A stretch of DNA of 64,000 nt, from positions 727,396 through 791,395 of the forward strand of contig DASVRW010000002.1 of assembly GCA_036388415.1 (NCBI GenBank), in the 5' to 3' direction. Position numbers and translations under genes: made by a program. The notes under the pieces are model-generated. The model was not told where the DNA came from. It worked only from the letters and a program-made list of their open reading frames with translations, and searched no databases. This DNA is from Candidatus Saccharimonadales bacterium. Its GTDB lineage: Bacteria > Patescibacteriota > Saccharimonadia > Saccharimonadales > UBA4665. Position 1 is the first letter of the stretch, and each line of letters begins with the position of its first letter. Positions 8,542 through 64,000 of the stretch are shown here, piece by piece.

Positions 8542-9729
8542 ATGCGACGAGTCACGATGACACCGCGGCCTGACTGGCCTGAAAAATGCCAGCAAGTCGG
8601 CTTTAACTTTTACGATTTAGCCTCAGAAAATAATGAGCCGTACTGGCGCGAGTCCGCAGCCTACGAGGTAACGATGACGGAGGTAGACGCCATCGAGGAA
8701 GCGACTGAGGAACTTTATGCTATGTGCCTGAAGGCAGTCGATTTTGCAATTTCCAACCAAAGACTACATGAATTTGAGATTCCAGAACAATTTTGGCCGT
8801 ACATCACTGAGGCGTGGCAGCATAAACAGCCGACCGTTTTTGGCAGATTTGACCTGGCTTGGTTACCCGATAATTCTGTAAAGCTGCTTGAGTTCAATGC
8901 CGACACTCCAACATCATTACTCGAAACATCCGTCGTGCAATGGTTTTGGATGAAAGATATGTTTGGTGATAGCAAAGATCAATTCAACAGCCTGCACGAA
9001 CAGCTGATCGACCGCTGGAAAAACATTCGCGTCAAAGATTGGCGGCTGCCCCAAAACGCGCCACTGTACATGGCTTCGCTGCGGGATAACGGCGACGGTC
9101 AGCTCATCGTAGAAGATTATGATAACGTCGCTTACATGGCAGAGGTAGCGAAAGCTGCTGGTTTTTCACCACGCCAGATATTTATGGAAGATATCAGCTG
9201 GAGTGATCAATATCAGTCATTCGTCGATAAAGACAAACAGCCTATACGCCATTTATACAAATTATACCCCTGGGAATGGTTAGTACATGAAGGTTTTTCA
9301 TCTAACATACTCGCTGCCGGGCCGCGGACAATATGGATTGAACCGATTTGGAAAATGCTCCTGAGTAATAAACAGCTGCTTGTACTGCTATGGGAACTAT
9401 ACCCTGGTCACCGTCTACTGTTGCCTGCCTTTAACACCAAGGTCCCGTTGCAAGGCAAAAAGCATGTTCGTAAGCCAAAACTCGGACGCGAAGGTGCAAA
9501 TGTTCATATATTTGGACAGGATGGCAGCCTGCTCGAATCACAAGCAGGTGGTTATGGCGCTGAGGGATACGTTTGGCAGGAATACATATCATTGCCCCAT
9601 TTTGATGGCTGGAATGCGGTCATTGGAAGCTGGATTGTCGGCGACACGCCTGCCGGTATCGACTTCCGGGAAACCTCAACGCTTGTAACAGGCGATATGG
9701 CGTTCTTCGTGCCGCATTATATATCGTAG
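8542..9729 (+). CDS. Glutathionylspermidine synthase-like ATP-grasp protein (YgiC/YjfC family)
   Basis: A 395-residue protein aligned over its full length with E. coli YgiC from memory: N-terminal MRRVTMTPRPDW, GFNFYDLASENNEPYW, the nucleotide/metal segment FNADTPTSLLE, KLYPWEWLVHEGF, LLLWELYPGHRLLLPA, the glycine-rich REGANVHIF and C-terminal AFFVPHYI. The family has the fold of the C-terminal synthetase domain of GspSA and joins carboxylates to amines with ATP; YgiC itself lacks a proven substrate. It is coupled to the DUF1190 gene (2 nt gap) and divergent from a DUF350 gene. This conserved trio suggests joint work on a membrane or secreted peptide target, which is inference. Confidence 0.9.
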   Translation: MRRVTMTPRPDWPEKCQQVGFNFYDLASENNEPYWRESAAYEVTMTEVDAIEEATEELYAMCLKAVDFAISNQRLHEFEIPEQFWPYITEAWQHKQPTVFGRFDLAWLPDNSVKLLEFNADTPTSLLETSVVQWFWMKDMFGDSKDQFNSLHEQLIDRWKNIRVKDWRLPQNAPLYMASLRDNGDGQLIVEDYDNVAYMAEVAKAAGFSPRQIFMEDISWSDQYQSFVDKDKQPIRHLYKLYPWEWLVHEGFSSNILAAGPRTIWIEPIWKMLLSNKQLLVLLWELYPGHRLLLPAFNTKVPLQGKKHVRKPKLGREGANVHIFGQDGSLLESQAGGYGAEGYVWQEYISLPHFDGWNAVIGSWIVGDTPAGIDFRETSTLVTGDMAFFVPHYIS

Positions 9730-9903
9730 CTTGCATGTCGAGTGAACTGTCTTAATAAATGATAATAAACGCCCTTTTAGTCTATGCCGGACGAGGAATA
9801 CGACCTACAATGATCTCAGCATACATACAGTGCTTATGTGGTACTGTACACAGTAAAATATGCCACATACAAAATTAACTTTCAATGATAACATTATGGT
9901 AAA

Positions 9904-57220: not shown

Positions 57221-57715
57221 CTATTTGTCATCGTGCACTGGCTTTGGCCGTTGCATCCAGAGATACAGTAATGTCAGCAAAGCATTGACACTAATAATAA
57301 GCGTTTGTAGACTTTCGAGTTTACGCCATAGTTCAAGCTGAACGATTGAAGCTGTCAGTCCATATGACATTAGCGGTACTGCGAGCAATGCTACTAGTAC
57401 CCCGACGCCAACTGCTGGCAGAAAATTGTATGCCAGCCTGGCTTTGCCTTTGACGGACTTGATCATAAATATCGTCGTCAGAACGACCGGCAACAGCAGT
57501 AGGAACAGATTTACATATGATTGACCTGCCAGCATGCCTGGTTGCCGGGCTGACGTACTCGCGACAATTGTTGCCGCATCCGGACCGACAAACTGCACAA
57601 GTACCGCTCCCAGGCACAGGCTCAAGAATACCTGTGCAGCATTAACGCGGAGCACCATGAGCAATAATACTGGCGCAGCCAATAGCGCAATAAGGATAAT
57701 CGTCGCGTCCATCAT
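57221..57715 (-). CDS. Four-helix membrane protein, unknown function
   Basis: A 164-residue protein with about four to five hydrophobic segments and a conserved-looking polar loop STSARQPGMLAGQSY after the second. No family recognised. TATAGT at 57721-57726 on the minus strand lies 5 or 8 nt before the two tandem ATGs (57715, 57712). It converges with the ABC permease. Confidence 0.55.
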   Translation of the reverse strand: MMDATIILIALLAAPVLLLMVLRVNAAQVFLSLCLGAVLVQFVGPDAATIVASTSARQPGMLAGQSYVNLFLLLLPVVLTTIFMIKSVKGKARLAYNFLPAVGVGVLVALLAVPLMSYGLTASIVQLELWRKLESLQTLIISVNALLTLLYLWMQRPKPVHDDK

Positions 57716-57769: not shown

Positions 57770-58237
57770 CTAGAGATTGACTGATTGTCCGACTTTGAGC
57801 TGATGCTTCGCGGCGCTACCAGACGGCAGCTCTATAACATACCGGCCATTGGCGCAGAAAACTTTGGGGTACGACGACGGACTAAGATTAGCTTCAATCT
57901 GCGTAATCTTCTGATGGTCGTCAAGCCAAATAATATCGATGTTGAAGCGCATATCCTTCATCCACATACAGCGCTCCGCGGTTTGATCATAACTGAACAA
58001 CATGCCAGACTGGGCGCCGAGCGACGACCGGTCACTCAGACCCTGACTCTGCTGATCGGCAGTGGTAACCGTTTCAAGCGTATAGGTGGTTATCGATGAG
58101 GTATCTTTACCAAGAATCAGCACTCTATCGGTGCCAGATTTATTGAAATAGAGAGATAGCAACAATATGACTACTGCAAGAATTACGACTATCGATCCTG
58201 CGACGAATAGTTTCTGCGATTTCAGCTTGTCATTCAT
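57770..58237 (-). CDS. DUF192-family exported protein
   Basis: A 155-residue protein: N-terminal hydrophobic helix (about 10-30) and a DUF192 domain with TADQQSQGLSDRSSLGAQSGMLF, CMWMKDMRFNIDIIWLDD and VIELPSGSAAKHQLKVGQSV. DUF192 proteins are small extracytoplasmic proteins of unknown role. The usual MxxTxFPLD run is retained as MKDMRFNID. It is on the same strand as the rimK operon but follows it by only 44 nt, so read-through is possible. Confidence 0.9.
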   Translation of the reverse strand: MNDKLKSQKLFVAGSIVVILAVVILLLSLYFNKSGTDRVLILGKDTSSITTYTLETVTTADQQSQGLSDRSSLGAQSGMLFSYDQTAERCMWMKDMRFNIDIIWLDDHQKITQIEANLSPSSYPKVFCANGRYVIELPSGSAAKHQLKVGQSVNL

Positions 58238-58281: not shown

Positions 58282-59187
58282 CTAAGCGCCGACTTTATCT
58301 TTCTTCGGCTTGCTCTTAGCAGTGTGCTCGATATATTCGATAATTTTTGTTGCCACGTCTCGGCCTGTCACTTTTTCGGGCGTCATAATACTAGCCGATG
58401 AATTGACTTCTAGCACTTTAGGTCCGTCCTTGGATCGCATCATATCGACGCCGCAGACAGGCAGGCCCATGGCCTTGGCGGCACGAATGGCCATCTTTTC
58501 CTCTTCGGCAGTTAGCTTGACGGCCTTGCCGATGCCGCCTTGGTGCGTATTGGAGCGGAAATCGTCATCGAGGCTTTGGCGTTCGATGCTGGCGATAACG
58601 CGGCCACCGACAACAAGCGCCCGGATGTCAGTACCGGCAGATTCGGCCACGAATTCCTGCACCATAAAGTTCACACCTTCGACATAGAAGGCCTGCATAA
58701 CCGCCTTGGCAGCCTTGCGGGTTTCAGCCAGCACTACTCCATTGCCATGCGTGCCGCGGGCGACTTTGATAATAACCGGTGCACCACCAGCTAGCTCAAC
58801 AACCTCATCCAGGTTCGCTGTTTCGCGGGCGAAAACAGTCTTCGGGATGCCAACATCATTGCGGGCCATAATCTGATACGAGCGTAGCTTGTCACGTGAC
58901 CTGTTAATCGCGATTGAGCTGGCAGTCGTGAAACTTCCTTGCATTTCAAACTGGCGTACAACTGCGGTACCGTATTTGGTATAGCTCTGCGCTATACGAG
59001 GGATGATGGCGTCAAATTTCGCTAGGATCTCACCTTTATAATAAATCACCGGCTTATTGCGCTCCATGGTCATGTAGCATTTAGCGTAATTTACGACAAC
59101 CACTTCGTGGCCACGAGCCTCGGCGACTTCACGAAGGCGTTTGGTCGTATAATTCAGCGATCCTTTGGATAGTATTGCTATTCTCAT
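58282..59187 (-). CDS. rimK: RimK-type ATP-grasp ligase
   Basis: A 301-residue ATP-grasp enzyme that aligns end to end with E. coli RimK, which adds glutamates to the C-terminus of ribosomal protein S6. Shared landmarks: MRIAILSKGSLNYTTKRLREVAEARGH, PRIAQSYTKYGTAVVRQFEMQGS, RDKLRSYQIMARNDVGIPKT, GGAPVIIKVARGTHGNGVVLAETRKAA, RSNTHQGGIGK and the metal-binding LEVNSSASI. It ends in a Lys-rich tail. The start overlaps the rimB stop (ATGA). The acceptor here may be S6 or another protein. Confidence 0.92.
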   Translation of the reverse strand: MRIAILSKGSLNYTTKRLREVAEARGHEVVVVNYAKCYMTMERNKPVIYYKGEILAKFDAIIPRIAQSYTKYGTAVVRQFEMQGSFTTASSIAINRSRDKLRSYQIMARNDVGIPKTVFARETANLDEVVELAGGAPVIIKVARGTHGNGVVLAETRKAAKAVMQAFYVEGVNFMVQEFVAESAGTDIRALVVGGRVIASIERQSLDDDFRSNTHQGGIGKAVKLTAEEEKMAIRAAKAMGLPVCGVDMMRSKDGPKVLEVNSSASIMTPEKVTGRDVATKIIEYIEHTAKSKPKKDKVGA

Positions 59188-59630
59188 CGCGTATTGTCTC
59201 CTTCGTCGTCAAGTTCTTCATTGAATCGCACATCAACAAGTAAATTATTTTCTCTTAAAAATCTTCTTCCTATAAGGACAGAACGCTTCAAATCTGACCT
59301 GTCGGCTAGTCCAATACGTATAGGGTACTTTATACCATGAATTACGATTGTCGTATCAACAATATATCGCTTGATGCGATGGCCAGTTGCGCTACGTACA
59401 TGCGTTTGAACAAACACGTCGGTTTCAGTTGCGAGTGATGACTGTCCCAATGGTGTAAACTTCAGGATTCGCTTACGTACAATCCCGCGCCGTATAATTT
59501 TGATATCCGTACAATGAAGCGCACCTGAATATGCACCAGTATCGATCTTTGCTATCTCGGATTTAACCCCAAGATCAGGTAAATCAACTGGTTCAAAGCA
59601 TCCCACAATTATATTGTCGATTTCTGGCAT
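59184..59630 (-). CDS. RimB-like retropepsin-type protease
   Basis: A 148-residue protein of the family often annotated ATP-dependent zinc protease (PF05618). It has an aspartic protease-like AKIDTGAYSGALHC with Asp30-Thr-Gly, then IRIGLADRSDLKRSVLIGRRFLREN. In proteobacteria RimB trims the glutamate tail made by RimK. Here rimB directly precedes rimK and overlaps it by 4 bp, which supports that pairing. Confidence 0.85.
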   Translation of the reverse strand: MPEIDNIIVGCFEPVDLPDLGVKSEIAKIDTGAYSGALHCTDIKIIRRGIVRKRILKFTPLGQSSLATETDVFVQTHVRSATGHRIKRYIVDTTIVIHGIKYPIRIGLADRSDLKRSVLIGRRFLRENNLLVDVRFNEELDDEGDNTR

Positions 59631-59635
59631 CTGTT

Positions 59636-60565
59636 CTACTCCTCTGCTTTCTGTATCATGTAATCTGCCAGCGCCGCCGCCTTCTCATTTTCAAACATAG
59701 TTCCTTCAATTTGCGGCGCACGGTTCACTTCAAAAAAATAATACTTACCAGTTATGTCATCATTTTCAAATACAACATCTACCCCGGCCACGTCGCGTTT
59801 CAATAGCGCCGCCGCCCTGATACATTCTTCCAACACATGTTGCGGCAATGCAGCACTGTCAATCAGCTGGGCTGGGCTGCCCTGGGAAGTATTATTCAGA
59901 TGGCCCGACAGCCTGGAGCGATACAATATTGGACCGATTGTATCGCCACATATCCACACTCGATAATCTGCAGAGTTTGGAACAAAACTCTGCACTACGA
60001 AGTGTACTTTAGGATGTTGCAACAAGGTAGATTCTAGATCAGTCCGAGATTGAACCAAATAATTATCACTACCCCTACTGCCGCTGACCGATTTCATAAT
60101 TACAGGATATTCGACCGTTTCGGTGTCGATTGCCTTGAGTAGTATGTCATGTGACGATGCATAGATCGTTGCTGGAAACGGTAAACCAGCGAGCGCAAAT
60201 TCCATATACTGCGTCAGCTTGCCCATTGATCCGGGACGGGTGGCAATTTCCTCGTCAATCACTGCTATGCCGCGTCCTCTGCAGTATTTTCCAACCGCGA
60301 TGGCCTGCGCGGTACTTTCCTTGATGCGCCGTAAATAGACAACATCGTAGTCATCAATGGTCTTGCCTGTCGAGTGGACCGTAATTGACTGTTCGGAAGC
60401 ATGAAGCACATACGACAAATCGTCATAAACTGCCATGTCGACGGTAATTGGTTGTGAAGCATTCGACTCTAGCAAGGACTGCAGGCGAGCAGGATGAGCC
60501 TGTCCCATATCAATGCTTTCTTGTGTAAACAAAATCAGCGCTCGTGTCATTTGTGCCGGCTCCAT
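59636..60565 (-). CDS. ATP-grasp ligase, RimK/glutathione-synthetase-like (B)
   Basis: A 309-residue ATP-grasp protein. The core has VIMKSVSGSRGSDNYLVQSRTDLE (phosphate-binding loop and Lys), HFVVQSFVPNSADYRVWICGDTIGPILYRSRLSGHL, VAGVDVVFENDD and the metal site FFEVNRAPQIEGT. The N-terminal domain lacks clear similarity to RimK. Its start overlaps the end of the preceding ligase gene by 19 bp and the rimB gene begins 5 nt after its stop, so it is the second gene of a four-gene operon. The substrate is unknown. Confidence 0.82.
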   Translation of the reverse strand: MEPAQMTRALILFTQESIDMGQAHPARLQSLLESNASQPITVDMAVYDDLSYVLHASEQSITVHSTGKTIDDYDVVYLRRIKESTAQAIAVGKYCRGRGIAVIDEEIATRPGSMGKLTQYMEFALAGLPFPATIYASSHDILLKAIDTETVEYPVIMKSVSGSRGSDNYLVQSRTDLESTLLQHPKVHFVVQSFVPNSADYRVWICGDTIGPILYRSRLSGHLNNTSQGSPAQLIDSAALPQHVLEECIRAAALLKRDVAGVDVVFENDDITGKYYFFEVNRAPQIEGTMFENEKAAALADYMIQKAEE

Positions 60566-61539
60566 ACATCGAGCATATCTACTATTTTTGCAGGCATGTC
60601 GACAATTTTACCGCCGCGCATCCCAAAATACAGCCTTAGTGCTGGCGCGGTATTGAACTCCATAAATACATAATTATCATCAGTTTGAGGAGCTTCAAAA
60701 TTTTCTATCATCAAATCGACAACTAGAAAAGCTGGATTAAGTTCGCGGGCCAGCTTTACGGCTGTTTTCAAATAACTCTCATGTATTTCATCAGAAATAT
60801 CATAGAGCGACGCACCACCGCTTGTCAGTGAATTTTTGCTTAGCTCAACGACTTCGCCCGCTCCCGGAATACTGTTTGACGTCATGAAGTCTGCGGGTAT
60901 AATCGCACTGCTTAGCGGCGGATACGGTATTTGTTCGAATTGTAATCCGCGCCGGGCGTCATTTTCTTGCTCTATTAGCTGCGCTATCGTCGAATGGCCG
61001 TTACCAATAACGCGGGGAGGTTGACGCCAGATAACTGAGACAACTTCACCATCAGCTATAGTTATTCGCACTTCCTGGCCTATGAATTGGCGCTGTAAAA
61101 TTACCTTACCGGAATATTCATGCGCGTAATCAATCGCTTTATGGAGGTCTTCAGTATTTTTGATACCAAGCGTTAATCCGTGCGAGCCGGATCCGTCAGC
61201 TGGTTTTGCAATAATCGGCGCATTTGCGGTTAGAAAATCTGCCATTTTATCATTGTCGCCAGGTAGATATATGGTGCGCGGTATACTGACGCCATAGTGT
61301 GCCGCGAACTCATAACCCAGAGTTTTATTGATGCTGATTTTCTTGGCAGCTACCGACACAAAGGGATAAGACATTGCTGCCCAGCGGCTTAACCATTTTT
61401 TGCCATTTGGGGCCGTGACCTGCATGTAGGTACTAGACAAGGGTAGCATTTGTATTGTATACCCCCGTGCGACAAGCTCTCGCGACAGCAAGTGGTACGG
61501 AGAATAGCTTTTTCTTGGCTTTAAAGCAGAGGTCATCAT
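60547..61539 (-). CDS. ATP-grasp ligase, cyanophycin-synthetase/GshF-like (A)
   Basis: A 330-residue protein resembling the ATP-grasp half of cyanophycin synthetase or bifunctional GshF: PIIAKPADGSGSHGLTLGIKN, ILQRQFIGQEVRITIADGEVVSVIWRQPPRVIGNGHSTIAQLIEQEN, and VVDLMIENFE with the metal site FMEFNTAPALRLYFG. The motif PPRVIGNGHSTI is especially close to the PAxVxGDGxxTI of that group. TATAAT at 61547-61552 ends 7 nt before the ATG at 61539. It leads the operon A-B-rimB-rimK. Free-standing forms of this domain often build peptides or polyamides. Confidence 0.82.
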   Translation of the reverse strand: MMTSALKPRKSYSPYHLLSRELVARGYTIQMLPLSSTYMQVTAPNGKKWLSRWAAMSYPFVSVAAKKISINKTLGYEFAAHYGVSIPRTIYLPGDNDKMADFLTANAPIIAKPADGSGSHGLTLGIKNTEDLHKAIDYAHEYSGKVILQRQFIGQEVRITIADGEVVSVIWRQPPRVIGNGHSTIAQLIEQENDARRGLQFEQIPYPPLSSAIIPADFMTSNSIPGAGEVVELSKNSLTSGGASLYDISDEIHESYLKTAVKLARELNPAFLVVDLMIENFEAPQTDDNYVFMEFNTAPALRLYFGMRGGKIVDMPAKIVDMLDVWSRHK

Positions 61540-61641
61540 TACAATTATTATAACATTTTGATAGTTTATTTTCAATAGTAACATAGTTAGTACTGTGCGA
61601 ACTGCACTTGTGTTTTCAGTTTGCTCTGGTATAACCAGAGT

Positions 61642-62868
61642 ATGCTATGGATTGTCGGTCACGCTTTCGCAGATATTCGGACATACTTACATGACCGTGA
61701 GATTTCGTTTGGCGTGCTCATAAATAAAAATGCACCTCAGCACCGTGCTCTGGCTGAGACACGGGTGGCCCCAGTTGATTTTTCGTCGCCAGAATCACTA
61801 CTGGCATCGGCTGATGCGCTAGATATAGACGTCTCGGGCATACTCGTGGCCGGTTATGAAAATTACGTGTTGCCGGCAGCTATATTGTCCGAGCATTTTC
61901 ATGTACCAGGTCTCAGTCAGGAAGTAGCGGCAGCAACTACAGATAAGGCAATCATGCGGCAAAAATTTATTGAATATAACCCAGCTATTGGTCCAGATTA
62001 TAAAAAGGTAACTGATTGGAATGATATAGACTCATTCATGTCATCCCACCATTTCCCGGTCATGCTCAAACCGACCAACCTTATGAAAAGCCTTTTTATC
62101 ACCAAAAACAATTCTCTCGACGAATTACAGCGTAACTATAATGAAATGGTCAGGCAATTGGCCGGTTTACACGACAAATTATATACTATGACTCCTCCTG
62201 AGATAATCATCGAGGAATGCCTGATAGGCAGCATGCACACGGTTGCAGGTTACGCCGATGCCGATGGTAACCCACATTTATTCGAACAAGTAGTGGACTG
62301 TGTCACGGGACAGGACGTCGGATTCCATGAAAATTATATTTATAGCCGCCAGCTGCCAAGCATACTCAGCCAGCAGCAAATTTCCGAAATTCTTGAGGTT
62401 TCCAGGCAAGGCATGTTGGCGCTCGGCCTGACGAGCACAATGGTGCATATCGAGTTGATGCTGACGTCAGACGGTCCAAAACTGATAGAAATCGGTGCTC
62501 GCATCGGTGGCTATCGTACGCGAATGTATGAGTATTCAAGTCACATTGACTTGAATAAGATCATGATCGATCTCGCGCTCGGCGAACAGCCCAATCCTAC
62601 TTTGGGCAGCCGTACCGATCCGATTGCTGTAATAGAGCTGTTTCCCGAAGCCGAAGGCATGTTCGATCACATTATTAACGAACAGAGCTTAAATCAGCTG
62701 CCGAGCTTACGTCACTTCAGCATCAAAGCAGAATCCGGCAAGGCCGTCGGGCGTACTAGTCACGGTTACAAAGCGACTGCAGTCGTTATTATCGGCAACT
62801 CAGACAGATCCACGTTTGAAGCAGACTTCGCCTACATCAAACAGCATGTTCGAGTCGCAATTAGGTAG
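61642..62868 (+). CDS. ATP-grasp carboxylate-amine ligase (C)
   Basis: A 408-residue ATP-grasp protein of the carboxylate-amine ligase type (BacD/PurK-like). Order: N-terminal Rossmann-like domain (about 1-95), then TTDKAIMRQKF, FPVMLKPTNLMKSLFI, IIIEECLIGSMHTVAGYADADGN, VHIELMLTSDGPKLIEIGARIGGYRTRM with the metal-binding Glu and the GARIGG motif (EINARxGG in relatives), and a C-terminal lid region. TATAAC at 61630-61635 ends 6 nt before the ATG. It is divergent from ligase operon A-B and overlaps the DUF1704 gene at the 3' end by 8 bp. Confidence 0.82.
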   Translation: MLWIVGHAFADIRTYLHDREISFGVLINKNAPQHRALAETRVAPVDFSSPESLLASADALDIDVSGILVAGYENYVLPAAILSEHFHVPGLSQEVAAATTDKAIMRQKFIEYNPAIGPDYKKVTDWNDIDSFMSSHHFPVMLKPTNLMKSLFITKNNSLDELQRNYNEMVRQLAGLHDKLYTMTPPEIIIEECLIGSMHTVAGYADADGNPHLFEQVVDCVTGQDVGFHENYIYSRQLPSILSQQQISEILEVSRQGMLALGLTSTMVHIELMLTSDGPKLIEIGARIGGYRTRMYEYSSHIDLNKIMIDLALGEQPNPTLGSRTDPIAVIELFPEAEGMFDHIINEQSLNQLPSLRHFSIKAESGKAVGRTSHGYKATAVVIIGNSDRSTFEADFAYIKQHVRVAIR

Positions 62869-64000
62869 TTTTGCTATCCATAAGTTTTTGAATATATTGA
62901 TCTTGTCCTGGCTGCAAGGGATTGTACTTTGCAGCAAATAAGCGCAAAAAATGCTTTTCTGGAAGCGGTTGACCATTGTTTTGTAAGTATTCAATGACTT
63001 CGGTGTTATCGTATACTCGGTCTTTGGGAAATACACAGCCAGGAACATCGGTTGGCATACCGCGCCATATCCGTACCAGATTTGAATATGCAGACGTTTG
63101 AGCCGATTCAACTTGCATATCATACGATTTATCCTGTGTATATTGATTGACAGCGCTAAGCCGCCAGAGTATTTCGTAACAATCTCTAAAGTCGCGTTCA
63201 GGATGTGCGTCGTATCCGGCGGCTAAAGCTATGGCGATCGTAAACGGCTCTCCGGCTGATTTTGGCTTACCATGATACATTGAGGCTACCGTTGCGGCAA
63301 ATGGCTCTTCAAACGATCCATAATGCAAAAGCCCAAATTCTGCTAGGCCAGCGCCGAGTTTTTTGCCTTTGGCCTGTCTGCCGGCGTGCACTTCTGCTTC
63401 GTGGATCTCAGATTCAATAACTTTGTTTTGCTTTCTCATACCCGCAGTCCGCTTCTCGCCGATTTCGATGACAGTATCGGTCATTTTGGCAGCACACGAC
63501 GATCGATTTGGTACCAGGATAGCCTTCCAGCCATCTTCAGCATATCCCTGTATCTGCAAATAGCGATTAAACACGTCTGCGCTTTCAGTCGTTTCGAGAA
63601 TATCTTTGCCATTTACTTCTTCAAGTGAATATTCAATCGCTTTTTGGCACATGGTCCGAATAAGGGTTCTATAATGGCTTACCATTTCCTCGCTCATTGT
63701 AGCCTCAGATGTAGCGAATTCGGGTAGCGTTATGGATGCAATCAATTGCTCAGCTATATCGTGCATAGGATGCGACTCATCAGCCACAATGTTTCTGGCT
63801 TTTTGCAGCCTGCGATCGATCAAAGTCAGGGCACGGTTAATGTCCGGCATGCCGTATATTTCCCTGGCGGTTGATTTGAGTGCTTCTGCTTGTCCGGCGC
63901 GCCGTTCAGGTGACAGTATATTTGCCGCAATCGTTGCAGCTGTCTCAACAAAATCAAGTTCTCGGACGCGCGAAGCTATCATACTGTCAAGCAATCCGTC
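62861..64000 (-). CDS. DUF1704 (QEGLA/MATCAP-like) metallopeptidase, 5' end cut by window edge
   Basis: At least 377 residues; the frame is open to base 64000, so the N-terminus lies outside. It resembles DUF1704, called flavohemoglobin expression-modulating QEGLA proteins in bacteria and MATCAP tubulin tyrosine carboxypeptidase in animals. The visible catalytic signature is HEAEVH (HExxxH) near residue 198 counted from 63994, followed by YGSFEEPFAA, where a Glu occupies the place of the zinc-ligand Glu in QEGLA. The middle motif ILVPNRSSCAAKM also fits. Flanked by ATP-grasp ligases, it may remove residues those enzymes add; that is inference. Confidence 0.72.
   Translation of the reverse strand, partial: DGLLDSMIASRVRELDFVETAATIAANILSPERRAGQAEALKSTAREIYGMPDINRALTLIDRRLQKARNIVADESHPMHDIAEQLIASITLPEFATSEATMSEEMVSHYRTLIRTMCQKAIEYSLEEVNGKDILETTESADVFNRYLQIQGYAEDGWKAILVPNRSSCAAKMTDTVIEIGEKRTAGMRKQNKVIESEIHEAEVHAGRQAKGKKLGAGLAEFGLLHYGSFEEPFAATVASMYHGKPKSAGEPFTIAIALAAGYDAHPERDFRDCYEILWRLSAVNQYTQDKSYDMQVESAQTSAYSNLVRIWRGMPTDVPGCVFPKDRVYDNTEVIEYLQNNGQPLPEKHFLRLFAAKYNPLQPGQDQYIQKLMDSKTT

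Follow-up and report, generated by a model that had tools for sequence, protein, structure and literature searches.

A conserved slot behind dnaJ in the Saccharimonadales associates RimB and RimK with changing peptide ligases and a putative MATCAP-type peptidase

The end of a stretch of 64,000 nucleotides from a Candidatus Saccharimonadales bacterium (assembly GCA_036388415.1, contig DASVRW010000002.1, positions 727,396 to 791,395; the window in what follows) carries six adjacent genes. They code for the glutamate ligase RimK, the putative polyglutamate protease RimB, three further ATP-grasp ligases, here named A, B and C, and D, a putative metallocarboxypeptidase of the DUF1704/MATCAP family. 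These genes belong to a slot found across the order, where RimB and RimK are accompanied by peptide ligases and MATCAP peptidases in varying combinations. Because linkage, fusions and replacements within the same slot agree, the grouping is very probably functional, making an amide-ligase/peptidase system wider than RimB-RimK alone. To the narrower reading, that of an expanded locus which would write and erase protein C-terminal tails as a Saccharibacteria-specific extension of RimB-RimK, we give an even chance.

Linkage was counted over the order in 149 genomes, of which 122 have RimK, each as a single copy. Strong homologues of B come with rimK in 36/36 genomes, this one included, and those of C lie within about 5 kb of it in 15/15; A is near rimK in 13 of the 16 A-positive genomes and a MATCAP match, as read from coordinates, in about 26 of the 38 MATCAP-positive ones. 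By a simple estimate, the probability that A, C and D are linked to rimK by chance is below 1e-20. A, B, C or D, singly or in combination, occur in no fewer than 68 of the 122 RimK loci. Wherever contig ends allow it to be followed, the slot is fixed, in the form dnaJ-[...]-rimB-rimK-DUF192-TM164. Among 122 slot loci – duplicates included, some loci being the same genome in two collections – RimB (103) and RimK (100) are the commonest content, and the genes that can be classified, with profiles built in this analysis, code mostly for peptidases or for amide ligases, the latter of two folds. Slots were mostly picked through A, B, C or D, and 13 through RimK alone; most of these 13 are without A, B, C and D, while L227 has D and an ATP-grasp gene, L228 an ATP-grasp gene and L225 a Mur-ligase half.

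A motif search specific for B, not selected by neighbouring genes, was run over 84,980 species genomes. It returned 51 loci, all 51 at this slot (46 with RimK, 42 with RimB), in records titled Saccharibacteria, Saccharimonadia, Patescibacteria or an unspecified 'bacterium', plus one contig of a Chloroflexi metagenome-assembled genome. The latter (L292) shows a typical saccharibacterial locus and is probably misbinned. An earlier, sequence-only reading of this DNA had made conserved linkage in relatives its touchstone: ligases, RimB-RimK and MATCAP do recur at one slot, and so does part of the gene order. The complete genome CP011211.1 has A-B-rimB-rimK in identical order and L261 has A-B-C(opposite)-rimB-rimK, but the full set of D, C, A, B, rimB and rimK is seen in this genome only.

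Fusions bring in another type of evidence. RimB is found at the slot as RimB-B, B-RimB, RimB-RimK and, once, joined to another ATP-grasp domain. In the tree of B the RimB-B proteins make a single clade, and B-RimB appears scattered in separate places. RimB-RimK hybrids are already known (PMC11957791); our literature search found no earlier report of RimB-B fusions. Their existence in both domain orders points to functional coupling, which sits badly with the idea that the region behind dnaJ is a gene-exchange hotspot where unrelated ligases gather and co-location has no functional meaning. That idea draws on the very variable contents of the slot, empty in G130 and G064 and sometimes holding a glycosyltransferase or a methyltransferase. 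We deem it improbable, however, as the classifiable genes are mostly those of amide ligases or peptidases, B exists nowhere else in the species genomes searched, and the A/B/C trio is retained across several gene orders. In other classes of Patescibacteria, RimB is mostly part of reading frames of about 420-920 residues, and its domain follows an ATP-grasp-like half in the examined L202, L206, L207, L209, L210 and L211; the 921-residue chain of L202 (100-2865) also holds a second ATP-grasp domain. An 856-residue frame containing RimB was seen in G388.

What these proteins might do can be approached through their residues. RimK matches the RimK Pfam family (E 3e-54), scores 322 bits with PRK10446, slightly below the 331-bit cut-off, and gives 302 bits against the Pseudomonas enzyme (7qyr). 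When compared with the known poly-Glu contacts (PMC10092738), it keeps S7, R64, S68, R189 and N262, with K8 and T14 replacing R8 and S14; K141 is present too. With its contacts kept or conservatively changed, it is by these criteria a true S6-type RimK. RimB has its best match in the RimB model (54 bits with PF05618), and its DTGA motif, with the catalytic Asp, aligns to a solved PF05618 protein; the characterized RimB cleaves poly-Glu and also stimulates RimK (PMC11957791).

B is of the RimK family of ATP-grasp enzymes, yet distant from RimK. In 41 aligned members the equivalents of RimK K141, R189, R203, E260 and N262 are kept, whereas R211 becomes Leu in 36/41, S212 becomes Asn in 40/41 and H215 becomes Ser in 38/41 (R211 and H215 are L and S in this genome). 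Judged by alignment, B thus has intact catalytic residues and an altered RimK substrate loop, and for this reason it is predicted to join, probably, a residue other than glutamate. This matters for another explanation of the locus, where ordinary S6 glutamylation would be all that happens and the extra ligases would be redundant RimK-like copies, also adding glutamate. RimB and RimK are, it is true, the most frequent content of the slot, but the changed loop of B, the origin of A and C in other ATP-grasp families and the lack of a glutamate end on this organism's own S6 make that explanation very improbable indeed.

The best profile for A is the ATP-grasp part of cyanophycin synthetase (TIGR02068 positions 196-470, E 1e-40), and the comparison with the structure 7wac gives E 6e-25. 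The earlier label 'cyanophycin-synthetase/GshF-like' can be refined, A being nearer to cyanophycin synthetase than to GshF. The Mur-ligase half is absent from protein A and, at a cut-off of E 1e-20, from this genome. It exists as a separate gene in 5/149 genomes, beside rimK in 5/5, and in the congener G097 it immediately precedes A, so that A and Mur there are, by this arrangement, a split cyanophycin-synthetase-like pair. C resembles most BacD (3wnz, E 3e-9) and the L-amino-acid ligases, with scores far below family cut-offs (82 bits for 302 with PRK07206, 18 for 29 with LAL_C2). In G101, of the same genus as this genome, A (C1:160858-161847) has an internal TAA, and a MATCAP match elsewhere in that genome (C1:241809-242456) has a TGA; both genes may be decaying.

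D alone gave no Pfam or NCBIfam match. With 26 homologues, however, the identity proposed for it from the letters alone, a DUF1704 protein with an HExxxH motif, is borne out: H309, E310, H314 and E341 are invariant in the 27 sequences (the zinc motif HEAEVH spanning residues 309-314 and Glu341 being the downstream ligand), 25/27 members match PF08014 (MATCAP), and a search with the profile of the family retrieves human MATCAP (7z5g) at E 2e-6. The catalytic residues of RimK, B and D are intact. Enzymes of the MATCAP/TMCP type take off C-terminal residues and are also deglutamylases, shortening glutamate chains (PMC10499314). In RimK-bearing loci of the B search, D accompanies 5/5 loci without RimB but 6/41 with it (p 0.0003), and a PF05618 search found no RimB gene anywhere in genomes G003, G030, G143 and G147. 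We rejected the notion that RimB and D are strict alternatives, as they frequently co-occur; only the rule 'RimB absent, D present' holds in these loci. This suggests that D can take over trimming where RimB is absent.

The tails of S6 tell a two-sided story. They end in -EE in 28/44 genomes with RimK and in 4/18 without (Fisher p 0.005), the RimK-minus set being here reduced by omitting most genomes with assembly gaps; with all RimK-minus genomes counted, the latter figure is 6/26 (p 0.001). The dnaJ locus is missing or cut in G011, G053, G066, G096, G107, G108, G125 and G078, and G077 ends after RimB. Since -EE tails track the presence of RimK, they support the view that in this order RimK usually acts on S6. 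Several points weigh nevertheless against our tail-writing locus. The S6-tail and RimB/D tests take no account of phylogeny. A Foldseek search of the D model (mean predicted local distance difference test, pLDDT, 87.8) against the PDB gave noise only, with no significant match. The S6 of this genome ends ...RRGRRDDR, not in Glu, and that of the congener G097 also ends -RRDDR; in Pseudomonas fluorescens, Lys as penultimate residue abolishes S6 glutamylation (PMC4741518). Given this end and that result, either the S6 of this species is a predicted poor substrate of RimK, or it would be trimmed first, or the target has changed. Glutamylation of S6 by RimK/RimB, as first proposed, is thus supported for the order, whereas the organism's own S6 has no acidic C-terminus ending in Glu.

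A last point on the same side comes from slots without RimB and RimK, which ligases of the C, G64 or A/B/C types often fill. In ten RimK-minus genomes (G012, G036, G040, G046, G059, G073, G084, G098, G104 and G142) the slot holds a C-type ligase, by itself or accompanied by other slot genes; G136 has another ATP-grasp gene there, and at L255, L273 and L278 the trio A, B and C stands in the slot with neither RimB nor RimK. As they occupy the slot without RimB or RimK, A, B and C need not act on the product of RimK, and by this distribution the extra ligases have a function that does not always require RimBK. In the RimK-less slot of L234 we also noticed a 400-residue protein (8605-9807) with a YGSN motif, beside an ATP-grasp gene; it has no Pfam match and looks like a gamma-glutamylcyclotransferase by eye only. 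The former proposal of a wider peptide-tag or small-peptide system is well supported as a functional grouping, given its recurrent linkage.

This leaves room for a pathway of free peptides or polyamides. There RimK would make soluble poly-alpha-glutamate, A, B and C (in some species with the Mur ligase) would put together a small peptide or a storage or osmolyte polymer, or add branches or caps to it, and RimB and D would recycle it. RimK does make poly-Glu in free form, both in vitro and in vivo (PMC11957791); the likeness of A to half a cyanophycin synthetase, the Mur half beside A or rimK, the proximity of C to L-amino-acid ligases and BacD, and the trio without RimBK all go the same way. 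Against it, S6 tails follow the presence of RimK, no exporter or storage gene was seen recurring in the slot, D comes from a family known for protein C-termini, and this genome is without the Mur half. We hold this pathway, the main rival, to be rather less likely than tail writing.

Under the tail-writing reading, RimK would put glutamates on an acidic C-terminal tail, that of S6 in most species, as homology and the S6-tail correlation suggest. RimB would cut the poly-Glu back and may stimulate RimK, as its characterized counterparts do. B, A and C might then add other residues to the glutamyl chain or to a related acceptor, cap it or branch it. D, as a MATCAP-type zinc carboxypeptidase, would take off C-terminal residues, and may replace a lost RimB. 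Carried to its extreme, this would be a bacterial 'tail code': four ligases would write several amino acids on one and the same protein C-terminal tail, or cap or branch it with them, and a retropepsin together with a MATCAP carboxypeptidase would erase them, as a counterpart of tubulin tyrosination and glutamylation held in one exchangeable slot. So complete a scheme is rather unlikely, and we offer it tentatively. 'Four writers, two erasers', as the locus had been summarized, is a fair count of the genes here, the four writers being not one activity.

The layout (Table 1) agrees with what had been read from the sequence: A, B, RimB and RimK in one operon, and C facing it and ending against the DUF1704 gene. 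A and B overlap by 19 bp, 5 bp separate B from rimB, and rimB and rimK overlap by 4 bp, so that A-B-rimB-rimK (61584 to 58282, minus strand) is by its layout one transcription unit. C diverges from A, with 36 bp between the called starts, and converges with D, their 3' ends overlapping by 8 bp. D, 488 residues at full length (L001 11257-12723), is cut by the window end.

Table 1. Genes of the slot and its flanks in window coordinates, and separate Mur-ligase halves in the coordinates of their own loci
Feature	Position	Strand	Basis or remark
rimK, S6-type alpha-L-glutamate ligase	58282..59187	-	Pfam, profile, comparison with 7qyr
rimB, retropepsin-like polyglutamate protease (putative), DTGA motif AKIDTGAYSGALH	59184..59630	-	PF05618, RimB model
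B, RimK-fold ATP-grasp ligase, family known only from this slot	59636..60565	-	
A, ATP-grasp ligase resembling the cyanophycin synthetase ATP-grasp half (positions 196-470)	60547..61584	-	
C, L-amino-acid-ligase/BacD-like ATP-grasp protein	61621..62868	+	TTG start, or ATG at 61642
D, DUF1704/MATCAP-family putative metallocarboxypeptidase	62861..64000 in window, gene on to 64327	-	
DUF192 protein	57770..58237	-	usual downstream flank of the slot
TM164 (label given here), 164 residues, hydrophobic by eye	57221..57715	-	downstream flank that varies least; no Pfam hit reaching cut-off
Separate Mur-ligase half	L146 8667-9944		
Separate Mur-ligase half	L179 8047-9312		
Separate Mur-ligase half	L148 4001-5251		

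Upstream of D the contig carries an oppositely oriented GGDEF gene, dnaJ, a gene for an NYN-domain protein and, by eye, dnaK and grpE. The GGDEF gene (L001 12952-13665, or 64556-65269 in window coordinates, beyond the window) has a degenerate HGDEY motif; in about 20 loci such a gene directly follows dnaJ, on the opposite strand. RimK is under the control of cyclic di-GMP (c-di-GMP) in Pseudomonas, and by analogy the GGDEF gene may be a regulator. Two further slot proteins deserve mention. An all-helical family of about 310 residues lies on the opposite strand between B and rimB (L033 10461-11384, L041 8565-9503 and about 18 more loci). An EHRNVL motif is invariant among the 12 members that were aligned, and the AlphaFold2 model is confident (pLDDT 93.8); the family has no Pfam match and, by Foldseek against the PDB, no significant fold match. 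An FGase-like protein was suspected by eye to be an N-formylglutamate amidohydrolase, an identity that was not confirmed. Finally, none of the six proteins matched a PADLOC model of anti-phage defence, and we rejected a defence role for the locus.

Comparison with known systems places the slot among several of them. With Pseudomonas RimABK, the S6 (RpsF) polyglutamylation system, and with RimBK hybrids it shares adjacent RimK and RimB, the RimB-RimK fusion and, often, a nearby gene related to c-di-GMP (GGDEF here, the EAL protein RimA there); it departs from them in that as many as three additional ligases and a MATCAP peptidase stand at the locus, RimB is joined to ligases other than RimK, the position behind dnaJ is fixed and the S6 of this genome ends in Arg. 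RloABC of Pseudomonas aeruginosa likewise combines a RimB-like retropepsin with an ATP-grasp protein, but RimB here scores better with the RimB model than with RloA models, and no neighbouring gene examined matches a transglutaminase family, as the membrane protein RloB would. Cyanophycin synthetase (CphA) shares its ATP-grasp part with A, and its Mur half adjoins A in a congener, whereas A stands alone, without N-terminal domain or Mur half. D has the HExxxH plus Glu, EEG and RG...KD..Y..G motifs of the MATCAP/TMCP tubulin carboxypeptidases and sits beside candidate tail-lengthening ligases, as TTL and TTLL act with MATCAP; unlike them it is bacterial and divergent, and there is no tubulin. 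C shares with the L-amino-acid ligases (BacD, BL00235) an ATP-grasp domain and a weak similarity to their C-terminal domain, but is linked to RimBK rather than to an antibiotic pathway.

Bacterial C-terminal protein polyglutamylation has been reported for S6 only (PMC11957791). Our literature search turned up no publication dealing with this locus. In 2009 Iyer et al. reportedly predicted, in general terms, tagging systems that combine ATP-grasp enzymes and peptidases. Saccharibacteria are tiny, mostly uncultured organisms with genomes of about 1 Mb, and such a number of ligases in them is difficult to account for in another way. The gene content of the slot suggests a protein-tail or small-peptide chemistry richer than what is known in bacteria. 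The locus suggests in what context the DUF1704 proteins of bacteria, and the cyanophycin-type ligase that is split in relatives, may function, and it supplies a defined gene set for testing multi-residue tailing in bacteria. An order-wide combination, at one site, of RimBK, further ligases and a peptidase of the type that trims tubulin would make multi-residue protein tailing, or else a novel glutamyl peptide, directly testable.

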